NCBI GenBank assembly: GCA_002179805.1
Contig: NAVB01000722.1
Coordinates: 1 to 64,000, forward strand
Direction: 5' to 3'
DNA from: Acanthamoeba lenticulata
Lineage: Eukaryota; Discosea; Longamoebia; Acanthamoebidae
DNA length: 64,000 nucleotides
Shown: piece by piece, positions 19,998 through 32,707 of the stretch
Numbering within the stretch: position 1 is the stretch's first letter
How the letters are laid out: each line of letters begins with the position of its first letter
Position numbers and translations under genes: made by a program
Notes under the pieces: model-generated
Told to the model about the DNA's origin: nothing
The model's database searches: none
Seen by the model: the letters and a program-made list of their open reading frames with translations, nothing else

Positions 19998-21783
19998 TTA
20001 GTCCTGCTCGTCCTCGGCATCGCTGCCCTCATCACCATCACCGCCGAGCGAGCCCTCGGGCACCTTGTAGATGCGCAGGAAGGGCTTGCTAGGATCCTTT
20101 ACCATCACGTACGTGCCCTCGTCGAGCTCCTGGCACTTGTCGATGATGTGCTTGAGGATGCCCCACATGTTGGACGCCGTCAGACCGATCTGGCCGGCAA
20201 AGTCGACCGGGGCGAACGACGCCATGCCCACGATCTGGTGGCTCGACGCGTCCTTGGTGTTGGTGCGCGTGACGAACCTGCACATGTGCGAGATTTGTCA
20301 GCGTGTGTGACGTTGGGCACCGGCGTAGTGTGTGAGAGGGAAGGACGTACCCGAGCTTGAGCTGATGGACGCCGGCGACGATGGACTGCGCGGTCCACCT
20401 GGCGAGCTTAACCGAGTTGTTCTTGAACTCAGTAGCCATGACGGCACCACGCTGCGAATCGAGCTTCGACCTCCAGTCGATGCCGCTGGCTCGCGGATCG
20501 TACTCGTTGAGGGCCTTGATGTTGGCAAACTCGGTCGCGTTGTCCTTCTTGACCGCGGCGTCGAACTGGCATCGGGCAAGGAGCACGTTGCCGTCACCCA
20601 GGTCGAACCTGCGGTAGCGGTAGCCCACCGAGGCCATCTCCTCGTCGGAGAGGTTGCCCTGGAAGGGGTTGGGCTCGCCCAGGCGGTGCCAGTTGCCGTC
20701 GCGGACGAGGACCTGCTGGGAGAAGTTCTGGTTGATGAAGGTGGCCTCGTCGCTGAGCTTGAGCGGCGAGTTGATGGAGTTGGGGTCGTCATCGCGTGGC
20801 GGCTCGCTGGCGTTCTCGTTGACGGTGAGGTAGTCGAAGAGGGAGTTGTCGCGCTTGTCGAAATAGACCTTGGGGTTGTTGTCAACGAAGACGCCGTCCT
20901 CCTCGCGGTTGGGCGGGTTCACGCGTCGCACTACGATGTCCCACGAGTAGTTCGAGCGCGGGGCGGTCATGAGGACAGACAAAATGGCGTCGGTGGCAAA
21001 CACATTGGCATCAGTGGCCACCTCCTCGTGGAGACGCGAGATGGCGGGATCATCGCTGGTAGTAACACGGAAGAAATTGCGATCAATGCGCTGCAGGGGC
21101 TTCTTGTTCTTGGTCGTGACCTGTTCGTAGGCCCTGTCATAGAATTCCACGGAGCCGGCCTGAAGCAGATCCTCGGGTTGACCCACTGGCTCCTTGTTGC
21201 GGATCTTGTGCAGCTGATTGAGGTCGAATTGCTCGACCACCGTCCATTCGGGCTTGACCTCGATGGAAGCCTCGCGGCTGAGCTTCTCGCCGAAGCGTCG
21301 GCCACCGAAGGCGCCAAATCGGCCGCCCTTACCGCCGCCCCACTTCTGCCAGCGCGCACCTTGGTGCTTACGGCGCTGCTCGTGATGCTTGCCGAAATTG
21401 GGCTTGTTCTGCGCGACGGTCTCACCGCGTCGGCGCGCTTGGGGCTTCTTCTGCCAGCCCTGCTGCCACCGAGGCTTGTTCTTCGACTTTTGCTTGGTCG
21501 ATGCGGCGACCAGCTGGAAATCGCCACCCTCATCGGTCTCCTGATGGTAATAGTTGAATGCCGTGTCGGCTGAGCCATAGCTCTGCGTCTGACCCCTGTA
21601 GCCACGCCCTTGGTAGCCCAAATTGTCGGCAGCCTTGCCCAATTTGTCGCTCTTGCTGAAGGGAGCGAAGGGGATCTCCTTCAGCTTCGAGGGGATGCTG
21701 TCTTCCGTGGGGCCCCAGCCCTGCGGGTTGTCAAACACCACAGGCGGGGTGAAGTGAAGAGCGGGCGCAGTTTCGGCTTCCAT
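19998..21783 (-). CDS. EIF3D: Eukaryotic translation initiation factor 3 subunit D
   Basis: Two exons, 21783-20351 and 20277-19998, give 570 residues, close to the family size. The N-terminus FTPPVVFDNPQGWGP is the eIF3d signature, followed by a long Arg/Gly/Lys/Gln-rich stretch (about residues 100-170) and the cap-binding fold (FATDAILSVLMTAPRSNYSWDIVVRR, DWRSKLDSQRGAVMATE, KLARWTAQSIVAGV, KLGFVTR, WGILKHIIDKCQELDEG). The C-terminus is acidic. eIF3d sits at the edge of the eIF3 complex and can bind the mRNA 5' cap for selective initiation. The SDP1-like start codon lies 112 bp downstream on the same strand. The divergent neighbour is LARP1, another cap-binding translation regulator. Confidence 0.97.
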
Positions 21784-22103
21784 GCTGCAGTAATGTAACG
21801 TGAGAGATCACGAAAAAATCCAGCAAGATGGTGCGATCCCCGCGGCACTGCGCAGCGGAAGAAATTGGGAAAGCCGTCGTGCGCGACTGCTGCAGAGAAG
21901 CTGACGGGTGCCAAAATTTTTGTTAAATCACCTCTTTCCCTCAGCCGTTTCTAGTTCTTTCTCTTCTTCTTTGCACTGCTGGCAGTCGCGCAACTCGCGT
22001 GAGAGCTTGCTGCTTGGGGACATCTGTGTGTCTGTTTTCCTGCGTGCGAACGGAACACGCGGCCAAGTGAGAGAGAAGAAGTCAACGAAAGAGGAAGAAG
22101 GGG
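21784..22103. promoter_or_regulatory. Shared promoter region of divergent eIF3d and LARP1 genes
   Basis: 320 bp between two start codons pointing outward. It holds pyrimidine-rich stretches (about 21940-21980) but no obvious TATA box. Any co-regulation is inference from position only. Confidence 0.5.
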
Positions 22104-25100
22104 ATGAGTTCGACAGCGGCTGTTGAGGGGAGCTCCTCCCCATCATCGCCCGCGGTAGCGGACTCTCCGGCGAAGCAGCAGCCCGACGCCAAGAAGGCCG
22201 CCTTCTCGGAGGTGGTGAAGGCTGGCAGTTCCAAGAAGGTGGACACTGTCGCCGACTCTGCCGATGTGGCCGTCAAAGAGACCAGCAGCCATGACGGTGG
22301 TCAGGCGCCGGCCTCCCCATCCGGGAGCGCCGCGGCGGCTTCCTCTGCCCGCAAACAACAGCCCAAATCGGGTTCGCCTGCTGCCTCGCCCGCCGCCTCC
22401 GCGTCGCCCTCTTCGTCATCTCCTGCCGTGAAGGCTCCCACCACCAATGCGTGGGGCGTGGCACGCAAGGAGTTGGCTCCTTCTTCTTCCACTCTTCCCT
22501 CTCCGACTGCTCAATCCCCCTCTTCTGTTCCCGCCTCTTCCGCTTCTCCATCTCTTTCCCATTCTGGTCAAGCGGACGCTGCCGACGCCAATGAGAATGG
22601 GTCGGCCGGCGATGAAGATGAGGCGAAGGAAAATCGGCGGAAGAAGGTACTTTCACCCATCTATTCGAATCTCTTACCTACTTTGGCCTTGATGCAATTC
22701 ATCCCAGGATAGCCCCAGAATTCTGCTTCCAACATCTGCAATTTTGTTGATGTTCCTGCTTATTAAGCGAAAAATCGCCACTAAATCGGACCATTTTGTG
22801 ATGGATGGCATTGCCACAGGACTTTATTCTGGAGACCCAGAGCTGGCCGAGCCTGGGCGAGGTCAAGACCTCGCCTCCCCCTCTGTTGTCGCCTGCGAAA
22901 AAGCAGAGCCGGCCCCCAACCAAGGACATCGCCTCTCCTCCGGCCCTGCTGGCCTCGCCCGTCGTGGACGCCGGACGTCCGGCGTCTCCGACCACCTCAG
23001 GCGTCGTCGCGGCCGTTGGGGAGGCCACCGAGCCCGCCCCGGCCAAGGGCCAACAAAGCAAGTCCAAGAAGAAGGGTACGTCCGAAGGATGTCGACACTT
23101 CCCTCCACAATCCGCAATGGTCCCCTTTTTCCCTCGTCCTCACGTCGCATTGTCGTTGTATGGCCTCACAGGAGGAGTCAGCTGGGTGCCGATGAAGGAC
23201 ATCGCTCCGGGTTCGTCGCGCGCCCGTGAGGCCAGACACCGCGGTAAGCCCAACGAGGGCCGCGATGGCGCCTCTGCCGCGCCGGCTGCCGGCAGCCGGG
23301 ACAGCAGCAACACGAAGGACGCCGCTTCGTCGCCATCGTCATCGACCGGTGCTGGTGGCGCCATCAACAACCGGGAGAGGCGCGGCCGGGAGGGCGGCAA
23401 CGCGCGGGAGAGGCGTGACGGCGCTGGCGGCAGCTCGGCCGGCCGGGACGGCAATCATGCTCGGGGGGAGCGGAGGGCCTACGGCGGACCTCGCAGCAAC
23501 AGCAGCAACCAGCGAGAACCGAGGGAGCCTCGCGCGCCCCGTTCGGGCTCCGCTCCGGTCTCCTCGGCTGCGGCCGCCGTGGCGTCGAAGGAGGCTGGCG
23601 AAAACGCGCCGGTCCTCTCGGCCGTGCCCGAGGGTCAGGGCATCCTGAGCGATGAGGGCATCGCCGCCCTGCCCACGCCGACGACGGGCGTCCACGGAGC
23701 CCCGCGCAACTACAACGCGGGCTCTGCGAGGCGCGCCTACCCGTCCAACAGCGCCTCGGCCAACGGCCGGAGCTCTGCGCAAAACAGCAGCAACACGGGC
23801 AGGAGGTATGGCGGCGGCTACCCGGGCTCTGAGGCGTATCCGTACGACCCTCGTTACGCGCGTCCCTCTAAGCCGGAGACGCTCAGCGAGAGCATCGTGC
23901 GACAAGTGGAGTTCTACTTCAGCGTGAACAACCTGTGCCGGGACGTGTACCTGCGCATGCGCATGGACCGGGAGGGCTGGGTCCCGCTTCAGATCATCTG
24001 CAACTTCAACAAGATGAAGCAGCTCACCACGGACAAGAAGCTCATCATCGACACCCTCAAGGCCGCATCGACCAAGCTCGAGGTCGACGAGGCCAAGCAG
24101 CGGCTTCGGATCAAGGGCGAGTGGGCCGTGTGGCTTCTGCCTCGTGATGAGGAGACGGGCGGCTTCCTGACGGGCGAAGGCCTCAAGTTTTTGTCGAAGG
24201 ACGAGACCGCCGAGCTCGAGCGCACCCCCGAGCCGCTGGCGGCGCGGGAGGACAACAAGCAGCAGTCAAGCTCGGAAGACCACCAGCAGCAACAGCAGCC
24301 CAACAACGCTGCGACGACCGCTGCGGCTGGCGGTGAGCCCGCTGCCGTTGCCGCCGCGGCGCCGGTACCGTCGCTGGCCAAGGAGAACGACTGGCAGCCG
24401 GCGAGCCGGAGGCGGAAAACTGGCAGCCTTCTGCGGAGGCCGATCACCCCGCGTATGGCGCGCGAGGAGGAGAGCGAGGAGATCGACGACGATGAGCTCT
24501 CCAACCTCATCATCGTCACGCAGTCGCCCATGAAGCCTGTCCGCCCGCGGGTGCGCAGCAGCAGCAGGGAGCAGATCGACGACGGCACGGGCGAAGTCCA
24601 GCAGGAGCTCGACCTCGACGAGCTCAAGCAGATCAACCGCAGCCTCTACCTCATGGAGCAGGCCCTCCGGCAGGGCGAGGAGGTCACCGAGCCTCACGAT
24701 TACGACGCCGCCAACGGCCTGCTCGAGCCGCGCCGTCTCTACCCGACCAAGAACAAGCGCAAGGAGCGCCGGCGGCGGAGGAAGAGCACCCTGCGCCGTC
24801 CCTCGTCGAACACGTCCTCCACCAGCTCGGCTGCCACGATTGCCGCCAACGGCAGCGCGGCGGTGACGACATCGTCGAACCCGACGGGCCGCGCAGGCCT
24901 CCGGTCGTCGCAAGCCTACTCGGTGGGCTACATCATCGCAAGCCCCATGAAGTCGGCCAAGTCCAAGGAGAACGAGTCCGACGGCGTCGCGGCGCCTGTG
25001 GAGCCGGTGGCCGCGCCGGACTCGACCGGCATCCAGCACCCGTCGCGCGAGCTGCTGAAGAAGAACAACTTTGCGCAGTACACCTACGACATGTGGCACG

Positions 25101-25937
25101 ACAACTGCGTCAAGGGTCCGTCGCACTTCACCCCCTTTTTGTTTATTTTATTTGTCATTTATGATTTGTGGTGATTAACTAACAAACGAACAAATAACAG
25201 AGAGGAAGGAGCTGGGCGTGGGCCAGTCGAGCGAGATGAACACGCTCTACCGCTTCTGGTCCCACTTCCTGCGCGCCAAGTTCAACCAGCGCATGTACGA
25301 CGAGATGAAGGAGCTGGCCCTGTCCGATGCCAAGCAGGGCTACAGGTTTGTTTCTTCAATTTATTCATTATTTATTCTTTTGGGAACAATAGTTTTTGAC
25401 TTCTTAAAACATTTTATTGCACAGGTACGGCACGGAGTGCCTCTTCCGGTTCTACAGCTATGGCCTCGAGAGGAAGTTCCGCGCCGACATCTTTAACGAT
25501 TTCCAGCAGCTGACCATCGAAGATTATAACTCGGGTTCGTTTGTCCTCTTTCTTCAGCTCCTACTCCTTTGGCTTCTTCTCATCCTGGACATCACATATG
25601 TGATCATCTACGCGCGCGTGCAGGGTCGCTGTACGGGTTGGAGAAATTTTGGGCCTTCCTCAGGTATGGCAAGGCCAAGCTGGACAAGGAGGGCGTGCAC
25701 CTCGAGATCAACCCCGACATCCAGTCGTGGCTCAACAAGTACCGCACCCTCAAGGACTTCCGCGAGGGTCCTCAGAACTACGATGATGTACCTCATCCCT
25801 TGCCCTCTTTCCTCTTCTTCTTCCTCCTCCTCCTCTTCTTCTTCTTTGATGTTGTTCTCAATGATCGCGTTGGTTGTGACTGGCCACAGCAGCAAGCGGC
25901 TCCCGTGGTGACCCAGCCGGAGGTGGCCGCCAACTAG
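22104..25937 (+). CDS. LARP1: La-related protein 1 (LARP1) with La motif and DM15 region
   Basis: A seven-exon model stays in frame: 22104-22646, 22820-23075, 23172-25115, 25201-25345, 25425-25534, 25624-25787, 25890-25937, giving 1069 residues. The N-terminal third is disordered Ser/Pro/Ala-rich sequence with a NAWGVARK and a WPSLGE short motif. An Arg/Gly-rich block precedes the La motif (about 23880-24140: [19 protein letters not shown] ... [17 protein letters not shown]). The C-terminus carries the DM15 repeats (about 25040-25770: [59 protein letters not shown]). DM15 binds the cap and first bases of 5'TOP mRNAs in animals, controlling ribosomal protein synthesis under TOR. The poly-Gln/Asn linker at 24255-24310 is low complexity. 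Confidence 0.95.
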
Positions 25938-26515: not shown

Positions 26516-28499
26516 ATGGGAAACGCGCAGGCCAACAGCTACAAGACCCAGGAGCAGGAATCGGTGTGCCCCTTCCGTCGGTCGTCAGAGCGAACAAGAG
26601 CGCTCCACCTCCGTGAAAGCGTCGACGAGCATGGTCGGATCTCCTGCAGTTGTGGCTATATTGCCCTGGACGAGCACTCTTACAACTTGCACATAGAGGT
26701 ACCCCGAGCTTGTGACCAGTTCCCTGTGGTGCCATGACTCACTTGGTACCATGTGCACGCAGTGCGGAGCGCCCAACCTGAAGCCATTGGACGGCAGTGG
26801 GTGGCCTGCTCGCCACTTCGAGACTGTGCCCTACGTCGCCGGCACGCAGCGCGCCGTCGTGTCCAAGGGTTCCATCGAGAACGCGGCCTTTTCCTGGAGT
26901 ACGTCTGTAGCTTCCCACCTCGCCCTGCTGGCGCTCGATATCAGGCATCTGACTTCTCTGGGCCCGCAGTCACGCTGGTGGACGACTTTGATGACGCTTA
27001 CGTCAGGCAGGCCGTGAGTCGAGTGCCGGTCATAACCTCCGAGGTGGCGGCCATCGCCGATGAGAGCGCGCTCCTCAGCTCGCTCGTCGGCGTGTCGGCA
27101 GGTCTGTGGAAGCGATGGGACGCCTCGCCGCCGGAAGAGCTCATCGCCTTCACCGACAAGCGGGCCGGCGACACAGGCCAAGTGCTCATGCCGGCCATCG
27201 CGGGCGGCCACCTCATTCTCATCGTCAAGTCCAAGCGCGCCGACCTGTGCTACGAAGTCACCCGCCGGGTCCTGCAGGCCCTGGGCGACAACGTGGCCTC
27301 GTCGGACTACACGCAAGGCTTTGGCTACATGGGCCAGCCGCCCTACGGCGGCCGCGACCTCACCGGATTCGTGGATGGCACTCGCAATCTCGACCACCTG
27401 CTGCGTGCCATCGCAGACGAGGTCGTGATCTTCCCCGACGACCATCCGAGCGACGAGAAGCACGTCGGCGGCACCTACATGTTCGCCGGCCGCTTCGTGC
27501 ACGACCTGCCCAAGTTCTTCCGCATGGGCGACCAGGAGAAGAGCGAGGTGATCGGACGGGACTACACGTGCGTGCGACCTCACCACGGCTACGACCAGCG
27601 TCCGGAGAACCCGCGGTTAGGCGCCGGCGGCGAGGACGAGTTCGCCTCCGTGGAGGGCGTCCCTTCGCGCTCCCATGTGGCCCGCGCCTTTGGCTCCATG
27701 ATGCGCCAGGCCTACCCGTACAGGCGCCCCTCCGAGGAGGGCTTCTTCTTCACGGCCTACGCGCGCTTCATGTCCGAGATCGACACCGCCCTCAACCGCA
27801 TGTGCGGCCACTATGAGGTATGTTCTCAGAGCCCGCCTGTGTGTGCAGTGATTGGTGCTGATGATGGATGCGCGCCCAGGCGGACGGCAGCGTGGACAAC
27901 CTGTTCAACATCACCAAGGCCGTCGAGTGCAACTACTATTACGTGCCGAGCCTCAACGAACTGGAGCAGCTGCCCCACGTCCAGCCTGGCGACGTCTCTG
28001 TGCCCTGCGAGGTCGAGGTTGCGAAGGAAAAGGAGGTCGAGCGCGCCGACGCCGAGGAAGATCTGATCAAAGTCTTCATCGAGTATTGGTACGTACAAGG
28101 CTCCCACTCCAACCGCGAGTACATGGACTCACCATCTTCATGTCGTTGTTCATGTGCTGCAGCACCAACTGCGGCTACAAGACGATCTTTGTGGAGAAGA
28201 AGAGGCTGCTGGAGGGCCTCTCGCCGCGGGTGCGGGTCATCGGCAACCCGCGCATGCCGCGCCTGGCAGCCTTTGAAGTGACCCTCGAGGACGGGACCGT
28301 GCTCTGGTCCAAGCTGGCCCACCCGGACGGCCACAACAACTACCCGCACGTGTTCCCCGCCAACGCGGCGCTCGCCGACGCCCTCCGGCGCCACGTCCCG
28401 GCCTTGGCCACCTCCTCGGACGAAGCCGAAGACGAGGAGAAGGAGGAAGAGGAAGCTGCCATCTATCGCGACAAGAAGACGCGCGTGGGCGTCTGGTAA
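26516..28499 (+). CDS. DyP-type heme peroxidase fused to a C-terminal SelW/Rdx thioredoxin-like domain
   Basis: Five exons (26516-26698, 26763-26898, 26970-27817, 27880-28088, 28163-28499) join in frame to 570 residues. The start MGNAQ could allow N-myristoylation (weak, Ala at position 6), followed by a cysteine-bearing segment (CSCGY, CGAP). Residues about 80-430 are a DyP peroxidase of the YfeX-like class: LVGVSAGLWKRWD, the GFVDG heme motif (239-243), GGTYMFAGRFVHDL, proximal SHVAR (His342), SMMRQAYPY and the closing NYYYVPSLNELEQL. After an acidic linker, residues about 453-540 match the SelW/SelT/Rdx family: IEYCTNCGYK with CxxC at 459-462, KRLLEGLSPRVRVIGNPRMPR and AAFEVTLEDG. An intron splits the first CxxC cysteine codon. 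The peroxidase would use H2O2 with an unknown substrate, and the Rdx domain could couple it to thiols; the coupling is inference. No stop or intergenic gap separates the domains. Confidence 0.88.
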
Positions 28500-30166: not shown

Positions 30167-30457
30167 CTGAGGACTACTGGCAAAGGTGGTCTGTATGCGA
30201 TGGATGTGGCAATGGCGCGAACAAGAATCCTCGAAGTCGTGAAGTTGGCGTGCGTTGTGGGAGAACTCGCCGGCATGTTCAGGAAGTTCTTTTGGTATGC
30301 GCCAGAATGTGAACTATGAGCGTATCTCCTCCAACGACAGGCTTCTCTGTCCTCCTCTCGTCATGACGCCCACTGGCAGGGCTGGCGTGATGCCCCACGC
30401 CACTGTACTCCTTCCGCCTGCAGTCTTCTTTGCAGCACTTCAGCAGCTCGACTTAAC
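30167..30457. promoter_or_regulatory. Intergenic region between divergent GRAM and hexosaminidase genes
   Basis: 291 bp lie between outward-facing starts and must hold both promoters. No distinct motif stands out. Confidence 0.4.
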
Positions 30458-32707
30458 ATGCGTCCGCTCGGCTGCTCTCTCCACTTGATTCTTGCCGTGC
30501 TTCTTCTGCTGGGGGCGAGCTGGGGCGCCAACGGGCGGCCTCCTCGGCTCATGAGACCACAGTCCTCGATTCCTGGCTTGACATCCACCACCTACCCTGA
30601 CTGGCGCGGTGGGGGCGGGGTGGCTGGCTTGTGGCCCCAACCCCAAACAGTTCAGGCAGGCCAGCATGACGCACACCTCTCCCCGCTGGGCTTCACCATG
30701 ACCACCACGTCCTTGTCGGACGTGCTCAACGCGGCTATGAAGCGCTACACAGATCACCTGCTGTTCCCCTTTCCCACGCCGCAAGATGATTCGCGCTCGA
30801 TCGAGCAGCGCCTTACCCTCAACGTGGCCGTGGCCGACGACAACGACACCAGCCCCTACTTTGGCATGGACGAGTCCTACGTGCTCATGGTGCCCCAGCC
30901 CCCGGCTCTAGGCTCTGCTGCGCCCTGGACCGCCTCCCTGAAGGCAGACTCCGTGTGGGGCGCGCTACGCGGACTCGAGACTTTCTCCCAGCTCGTTCGC
31001 TGGGATGATGTGAAGGAAACCTACTCGCTCCCCAACCTCCCTCTTCGCATCACCGACTGGCCTCGGTTCCCCTGGCGGTACTTTCTACCTCTTGATCTCT
31101 ACGTAGCTTTCTCCTTCTCGGGTCGGTAACGACAACGTTGTGTCCAGGGGCATCTTGATTGACGTGTCGCGGCACTACCTGCCCATCGAAGCCATCTTGC
31201 GCACTCTGGACGCCATGTCCTACAACAAGCTCAACGTGCTCCACATTCACGCCACCGACGGCCAGTCGTTCCCCGTAGAGTCCAACCGCTACCCGAACCT
31301 TACGCAGTACTCGAGCCAGCCTCCGACATGAAGAAGGAAATCTCATCACTGACTCACCTCCACTCAATAGGGCGGCGTGGGGCAAGAAGGCGGTCTACAG
31401 CCACAGCGACCTGCGCGAGGTCGTCCGTCATGCGCGTTTCCGCGGCATTCGAGTCGTGCCCGAGTGGGAGATGCCTGGCCACGCCTATGGGTATGTTCAT
31501 CACCCTGATGTCCTGGGGATTCTATCCTGGTGGTTGGCAAAAGCTGATGGTGGCCACCGTTTGCATTAGGTTCGGAGTGGGGTACCCGTACATGGTGGCT
31601 CACTGCCCGTCGTACACGACCGACCCCAACATGATTCCACTCAACATTGCCGACGACCGAACTTACGAGCTCCTCCTGGGTTTCATCGACGAGATGGCCC
31701 GCGAGGTCTTCCCCGACGAGTTCATCCACACGGTAATCACCTCTCGCCGTCATGGGTCTGCGTTGAGTTGAACGCTGATGATAGGCTCGCCAATTTACAG
31801 GGCGGGGATGAAGTGGCCGTGGACTGCTGGGTGAACGACCCGGCCATCAAGGCCTGGGGCCTCGCCCACAACATGACAGACCCGTACCGCATGTTCGCCT
31901 ACTTTGAGGCGCGGCTGGCCACTCTCGTCCAGCCTTCCCAAGCCCAGCGGCCCTTGAAGCCCGTGCGTGGTGGCCGGACAGATCCGGCCCTGCCGCCCTA
32001 CGTCAACAGGACGATGGTGGTGTGGCAGGACGTGTGGGACGACAACTGGGCCCATCTGGTCCATCCCGAGACCGTGGTCGAGGTGTGGCACGACAAGGTT
32101 ACGCTCCGGAACGTGATCCTCAAGGGCTACCGCACGCTGTGGGCCTACCCGTGGTACCTCGACCAGCAGCAGCCCGGGATGGACCCCAAGAAGACCTTTT
32201 ACGAGTGGGTCGACACCTGGATGGCCTTCTACGAGGCCGAGCCCCTGATCGGCCTCAACCTCACTGCGGCCCAGCAGGCCATGTTCCTAGGCGGCGAGGG
32301 CTGCATGTGGGGCGAGAACGTGCGTTATACCTTCGAGATGAGAAGGCTGGATGGTGCGGACCAAGTCTCACGCAAGTGCATGAGCCACAGGTGGACGAGA
32401 CCAACATCGATTCGCGCATCTGGCCGCGCGCCGCCGGTATCGCCGAGCGGCTTTGGTCGGCCGCGTCGGTGAACGACCCCTACGCGGCGCGTCCTCGCCT
32501 GGTCAACTTCCGCTGCAACTCGCTCGCACGGTACATCTCCCTCGCCTCTGCTTCGACGTCACGGCACTTGCGCTGAGTTCCCCTTTTCTCCTAAGATGTT
32601 ACCCTCACCACATCAACACACAAACACACAGGCGAGGGATCGGGGCTGGGCCAGTCATGCTGGACTATTGTCCGCTGCCGCCGCGCCATCACCACCGGTC
32701 CATGTGA
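30458..32707 (+). CDS. Beta-N-acetylhexosaminidase (GH20), lysosomal/secreted
   Basis: Multi-exon gene. The first about 24 residues form a signal peptide (LHLILAVLLLLGASWGANG). The N-terminal domain ends SVWGALRGLETFSQLV and LPLRITDWPRFPWR. The GH20 barrel then has GILIDVSRHYLPIEAILRTLDAMSYNKLNVLHIH, GIRVVPEWEMPGHAYGFGVGYP, the acid/base motif HTGGDEV split by an intron (about 31732-31800), MVVWQDVWDD, LWAYPWYLDQ, GGEGCMWGE and RIWPRAAGIAERLW. The protein removes terminal GlcNAc or GalNAc from glycoconjugates in lysosomes or the medium. The usual HWH and VDDQSFP blocks read HIH and TDGQSFP here. Exon 1 ends at 31077 and exon 2 begins at 31148. N-glycosylation sequons (NDT, NLT, NRT) fit secretion. 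Confidence 0.93.

Follow-up and report, generated by a model that had tools for sequence, protein, structure and literature searches.

Introduction

Neither the molecules that naturally supply class B DyP peroxidases with electrons nor the targets of SelW-type proteins in the cell have, to our knowledge, been settled. A single gene of Acanthamoeba lenticulata brings the two together. It lies on the plus strand of contig NAVB01000722.1 (assembly GCA_002179805.1), in a stretch of 64,000 nucleotides (positions 1 to 64,000) that is called the window here, and its predicted product joins a DyP domain to a SelW/Rdx domain in one chain (Table 1). Is this fusion a genuine protein, and what might its two domains do for each other? 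The DyP-Rdx fusion proves genuine and conserved and has apparently not been described before, and we discuss below how the SelW-type domain could serve the peroxidase.

Results

By profile, motifs and predicted fold, the first half of the protein is a domain of the class B DyP type, predicted to be a heme-binding peroxidase. In Pfam, Dyp_perox_C scored 77.2 bits (cut-off 20) and Dyp_perox_N 26.4 (cut-off 20.4), and NCBIfam Dyp_perox_fam (TIGR01413) scored 121.8 bits against a cut-off of 100.5. A third NCBIfam family, tat_substr_1, was matched far below its cut-off (28.8 against 428). The class B fold was recognized in the predicted structure of a relative, P0001. The Asp, proximal His and distal Arg typical of class B DyPs are in place: we take Asp242 of GFVDG to be the catalytic Asp, His342 of SHVAR the proximal heme ligand and Arg352 of RQAYPY the distal Arg.

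The second half belongs to the SelW/Rdx family by profile, motif and modelled fold, and is predicted to be a thiol redox domain. Pfam Rdx scored 29.2 bits over the full-length protein and 33.0 when the domain was scanned by itself (cut-off 22.6), and NCBIfam CXXU_selWTH (TIGR02174, SelT/SelW/SelH) 39.5 bits against 34.2. CTNC stands after the first strand, where the SelW/Rdx family requires its CxxC or CxxU, both in the window protein and in all 20 public fusions described below, and the thioredoxin-like fold of SelW was seen in the model of the relative P0030. When ten relatives were rescanned with Rdx, nine reached the cut-off (P0014 exactly); P0012 fell below it (19.3 versus 22.6), though the motif is present. 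These matches bear out a preliminary description made from the DNA letters, as to both the fusion and the classes to which its domains belong. The motifs that it listed (GFVDG, SHVAR, MMRQAYPY and EYCTNCGYK) are present as written, and in-frame GT-AG joining reproduced its five exons, their coordinates and the 570 residues.

The four introns (64, 71, 62 and 74 bp) are all GT-AG. Exon 4 carries the end of the DyP domain (NYYYVPSLNEL), the linker and the first Rdx strand, and it stops after the second base of the codon for the first active-site Cys; each domain is incomplete if this exon is removed. Its position across the domain boundary argues against separate DyP and Rdx transcripts, one of two outcomes that the preliminary description named as refuting the fusion. 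In addition, the fusion open reading frames (ORFs) P0002, P0005, P0012 and P0014 (EukProt, with Trinity names) and P0006 (MMETSP) come from transcript assemblies; since they hold both domains, single DyP-Rdx transcripts exist in relatives.

Protein searches, each of which scored the best 7998 candidates by common words, returned 28 rows with the single sequence and 65 with the profile. Among them, 20 public proteins combine DyP sequence with CTNCGY (P0001-P0009, P0012-P0020, P0032, P0033), of which P0004 is apparently cut at its start and P0017-P0020, P0032 and P0033 are fragmentary. Four family members that end before the Rdx site (P0010, P0011, P0021, P0022) were not counted as fusions, and rows with no Rdx in the table (P0023-P0028, P0034-P0069) or consisting of Rdx pieces (P0029-P0031) were dropped beforehand. 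P0001, from Balamuthia mandrillaris (59% identity), is the only one of the 20 with an organism name. Its public name, "MACPF domain-containing protein", conflicts with its Pfam domains, DyP and Rdx. Absence from all related species, the other outcome named in the preliminary description as fatal to the idea, is contradicted by the Balamuthia protein and the transcript-derived relatives. In viral_contigs the motif scans retrieved 10 stretches, in genome_contigs 41, and a relative is encoded in none of them; these scans used motifs of the family itself, so that an unrelated bacterial DyP-Rdx fusion could escape them.

In 15 aligned proteins, D242, H342, R352, C459-T-N-C-G-Y464, N487, P491, R492, K509, G515, N517, N518, F523 and P524 never vary, nor does the column of Trp570. 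DyP and Rdx distances among 16 proteins, both genomic copies included, were correlated (r 0.84), and none of 5000 permutations gave a value as high; since the near-identical pair (window and contig C29, below) and common species ancestry enter this correlation, it indicates co-inheritance and not function. The Rdx tree is weak, with 5 of its 13 inner branches starred. The 20 proteins and the second genomic copy are more than chance would give. Judged from these comparisons, the fusion is old, co-inherited and recurrent in other protists.

The second copy lies on the minus strand of contig C29 of the same genome (43806-45810), and the segment 26374-30240 matches that contig at 96.3% identity over 3902 columns. 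Besides the fusion gene, this segment contains a minus-strand neighbour that matched no Pfam family, and its right edge is sharp. Similarity ends abruptly near 30240, and on the opposite side contig C29 itself runs out; the segment may therefore be either a repeat or an allele. The copy on C29 retains all four introns; its exon gaps (21 and 6 bases) leave the frame intact, and its intron gaps measure 3, 2, 5 and 1 bases. Nonsynonymous (dN) and synonymous (dS) divergence between the copies was 0.0063 and 0.0409 in the DyP domain, 0.0048 and 0.0594 in Rdx, and 0.1004 and 0.1266 in the linker. By these estimates, from few changes, both domains are constrained and the linker is not. A bacterial gene or contamination was considered and rejected, as four introns are retained in both copies.

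The N-terminus was compared in 16 public rows whose start looks native, leaving out P0004, P0011, P0017-P0020, P0023 and P0029-P0033. An MG start with Ser or Thr at position 6 was found in nine (P0001, P0005, P0006, P0010, P0013, P0015, P0016, P0021, P0022) and an N-terminal hydrophobic stretch in four (P0003, P0007, P0009, P0014); some of the 16 are close kin, so these cases are not independent. Membrane attachment through Gly2, suggested in the preliminary description, thus gains comparative support. The window protein itself has Ala, not Ser or Thr, at position 6; its MGNAQA start, with a small residue there, is compatible with N-myristoylation. The fusion is probably anchored in a membrane and turned towards the cytosol. 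A CxCG...HxE motif follows in 15 of the 16 (the exception is P0014) and in P0011. In the P0001 model it forms a hairpin and a helix like those of a small zinc finger, and perhaps it is one of a C2H2-like kind; a Pfam scan of six N-termini, zinc-finger families included, gave no family above cut-off. At the other end of the protein, outside the Rdx fold, stands a conserved TRxG[VI]W (28479-28496), whose Trp aligns throughout the 15 full-length rows.

Rdx sequence occurs at a third place in the genome, a stand-alone SelW of 84 residues in three exons on contig C536 (L015 2334-2726, G000:C536). It reads MKIYIEYCTA(TGA)GYGSKF..., where an in-frame TGA takes the position of the fusion's second Cys, and is 43% identical to the Rdx part of P0005 over 61 residues. 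An Rfam scan of this locus found no selenocysteine insertion sequence (SECIS) element, and folds of its 3' region were unconvincing too. Elsewhere, two SECIS matches exceeded the Rfam cut-off (G000:C1167:592-658 and G000:C1586:1632-1693); they likely adjoin other selenoprotein genes. A selenocysteine tRNA was found at 72.8 bits (cut-off 47), with seven lower places below the cut-off, in a search in which 5 of 14 control genomes also exceeded it. Acanthamoeba has a selenoprotein thioredoxin reductase, according to PMC11459619. The genome thus seems, from its sequence, to keep SelW in two forms, one with selenocysteine that stands alone and one with Cys that is joined to the peroxidase. Selenocysteine within the fusion was considered and rejected: there is no sign of it, and every member that extends to the site has Cys.

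Table 1. Features of the DyP-Rdx fusion gene, in window positions
Feature	Position	Strand	Basis
Whole gene	26516..28499	+	5 exons, 570 residues and stop; GT-AG joins in frame, both domains, second copy with all four introns
Exons 1-5	26516-26698, 26763-26898, 26970-27817, 27880-28088, 28163-28499	+	In-frame joining
N-terminus MGNAQA, candidate myristoylation start	26516..26533	+	MG start; Ala at position 6
CxCG...HxE mini-domain, residues 44-61, candidate small zinc finger	26645..26698	+	Motif conservation, P0001 model
Class B DyP peroxidase domain, about residues 75-425	26802..27987 (introns 26899-26969 and 27818-27879 within)	+	Pfam, NCBIfam, solved relatives, P0001 fold
GFVDG motif with Asp242	27365..27379	+	Invariant in 15 aligned proteins
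His342, SHVAR motif	27674..27676	+	Invariant in 15; corresponds to SHVGR of 5DE0
Arg352, RQAYPY motif	27704..27706	+	Invariant in 15 aligned proteins
Acidic linker, residues 426-452	27988..28068	+	Fast-changing between the two genomic copies (dN 0.100, dS 0.127)
SelW/Rdx domain, about residues 453-545	28069..28421 (intron 28089-28162 within)	+	Pfam, NCBIfam, fold of relative P0030
CTNC active site, residues 459-462	28087..28172	+	Cys459 codon interrupted by intron 28089-28162; CTNC invariant in 15
Acidic tail ending TRVGVW	28422..28496	+	Trp at the column of residue 570 in all 15 aligned proteins

In the surrounding window, 5 of 10 ORFs scanned matched a Pfam family. The neighbours so named include eIF3 subunit 7 (20092-21807, minus strand), a La/LARP1-like gene (22802-25908, plus strand) and a GH20 hexosaminidase (30320-32469, plus strand).

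Discussion

We tentatively favour, at a little under an even chance, the reading that the fusion is a eukaryotic class B DyP, anchored in a membrane and facing the cytosol, with a tethered SelW-type dithiol domain whose CTNC is its dedicated redox partner. The DyP would reduce peroxide at its heme. The CTNC dithiol could then donate the electrons that return the heme to rest, or it could leave as a disulfide, to be handed on to a partner protein, with thioredoxin or glutathione resetting it. The anchor would hold the enzyme near a peroxide source or lipid peroxides. It is also conceivable, if on the whole unlikely, that the heme makes the fusion a converter of peroxide into disulfide: the DyP heme, oxidised by a peroxide, would in turn oxidise its own tethered SelW dithiol, and the disulfide would be relayed to membrane-side partners. 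If true, this would be a redox-signalling device that uses a heme peroxidase instead of a peroxiredoxin and has been retained across divergent protists. The preliminary description had inferred a self-contained sensor of peroxide or a relay acting as a thiol peroxidase, and the fusion might be either.

Several points weigh against the fusion as observed or against its reading as an anchored DyP with a dedicated SelW-type partner. Co-inheritance and constraint address joint conservation, not electron transfer between heme and CxxC, and the dN/dS estimates are built on few changes. The Rdx profile scores are modest, and the best solved relatives of this domain in a PDB search are weak by sequence (MIEN1, E 0.011; SelW, E 0.3). 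When the genome was searched in six frames with Rdx, there was no match, because intron 4 interrupts the domain. The searches of the 48.5 Mb genome with the two DyP families, which found only the two fused copies, are intron-blind and score the best candidates. As to the anchor, class B DyPs are described as cytoplasmic in PMC8230527, and among the 16 native-start relatives P0008 and P0012 have no anchor feature and P0002 is ambiguous. Finally, the window copy has Leu247 (GTRNLDH, 27380-27400), whereas Pro stands there in the second copy and in nearly every relative; this may be a variant, a weakened copy or an assembly error.

The main rival to a dedicated redox partner is that Rdx is a docking module for partners such as 14-3-3, while the DyP acts alone on small substrates. 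SelW is reported to bind 14-3-3 beta via the U of its CXXU motif (PMC8508763), and many invariant Rdx residues lie outside CTNC. However, both CTNC cysteines are invariant in 15 proteins and would not be needed for pure docking, an objection that is weak since SelW docking uses a CTNC-type motif. We regard docking as unlikely, though it is a serious competitor. A role in heme or iron handling, in which the protein would oxidise porphyrins or sense heme, as YfeX-type proteins have been proposed to do, and the thiols of CxCG and CTNC would bind metal or heme, appears distinctly improbable: among the nearest solved relatives are some that bear the names deferrochelatase and YfeX, and the additional CxCG...HxE motif is conserved, but the peroxidase motif Asp and Arg are retained and the N-terminus has no Pfam metal-binding family. 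That the fusion is an artefact merging two adjacent genes is hardly credible and was rejected, for although the six-frame Rdx search was blank and the gene model was built from the genomic sequence of A. lenticulata, exon 4 carries the DyP end with the Rdx start, intron 4 falls inside the first Cys codon, a second genomic copy exists, and the ORFs of five relatives are named as transcript assemblies.

A literature search (DyP with Acanthamoeba, Balamuthia, amoebae or SelW/Rdx, and DyP domain architecture) gave no account of a DyP-Rdx fusion among the titles and abstract openings judged, which included papers on bacterial DypB in tobacco and on Leishmania, most subscription papers and bioRxiv being outside its scope; the preliminary description likewise knew of none. 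The conserved covalent pairing of DyP and SelW, with no other DyP found in the genome by intron-blind searches, names a candidate partner for each. The fusion could therefore reveal what partners class B DyP peroxidases.

Compared with the class B (P-type) enzymes KpDyP (6FKS), YfeX (5GT2), VcDyP (5DE0) and Dictyostelium DyPA (7O9J), the fusion adds an N-terminal motif and Rdx, and its motif His and Arg are 10 residues apart versus 17 in 5DE0. DyPA is cytoplasmic and single-domain according to PMC8230527, whereas the fusion is likely anchored. Unlike selenoprotein W and its bacterial relatives (2NPB, 2FA8), the fusion is joined to a peroxidase and has Cys in place of selenocysteine, and its conserved NNYPHVFP stretch and TRVGVW tail are its own. 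The stand-alone SelW on C536 resembles it (EYCTA(TGA)GY versus EYCTNCGY, 46% identity over 56 residues) but has 84 residues, no peroxidase and TGA at the second Cys. MIEN1 (C17orf37, 2LJK), the best of the weak PDB sequence matches, shares a SelW-type CxxC and is held at the membrane by lipid, with a disulfide potential of -225 mV (PMC3527542). It has no peroxidase, and it carries a C-terminal prenyl group in contrast to the possible N-terminal myristoyl or helix of the fusion. By analogy, MIEN1 offers the closest model of how the Rdx half may sit at a membrane.
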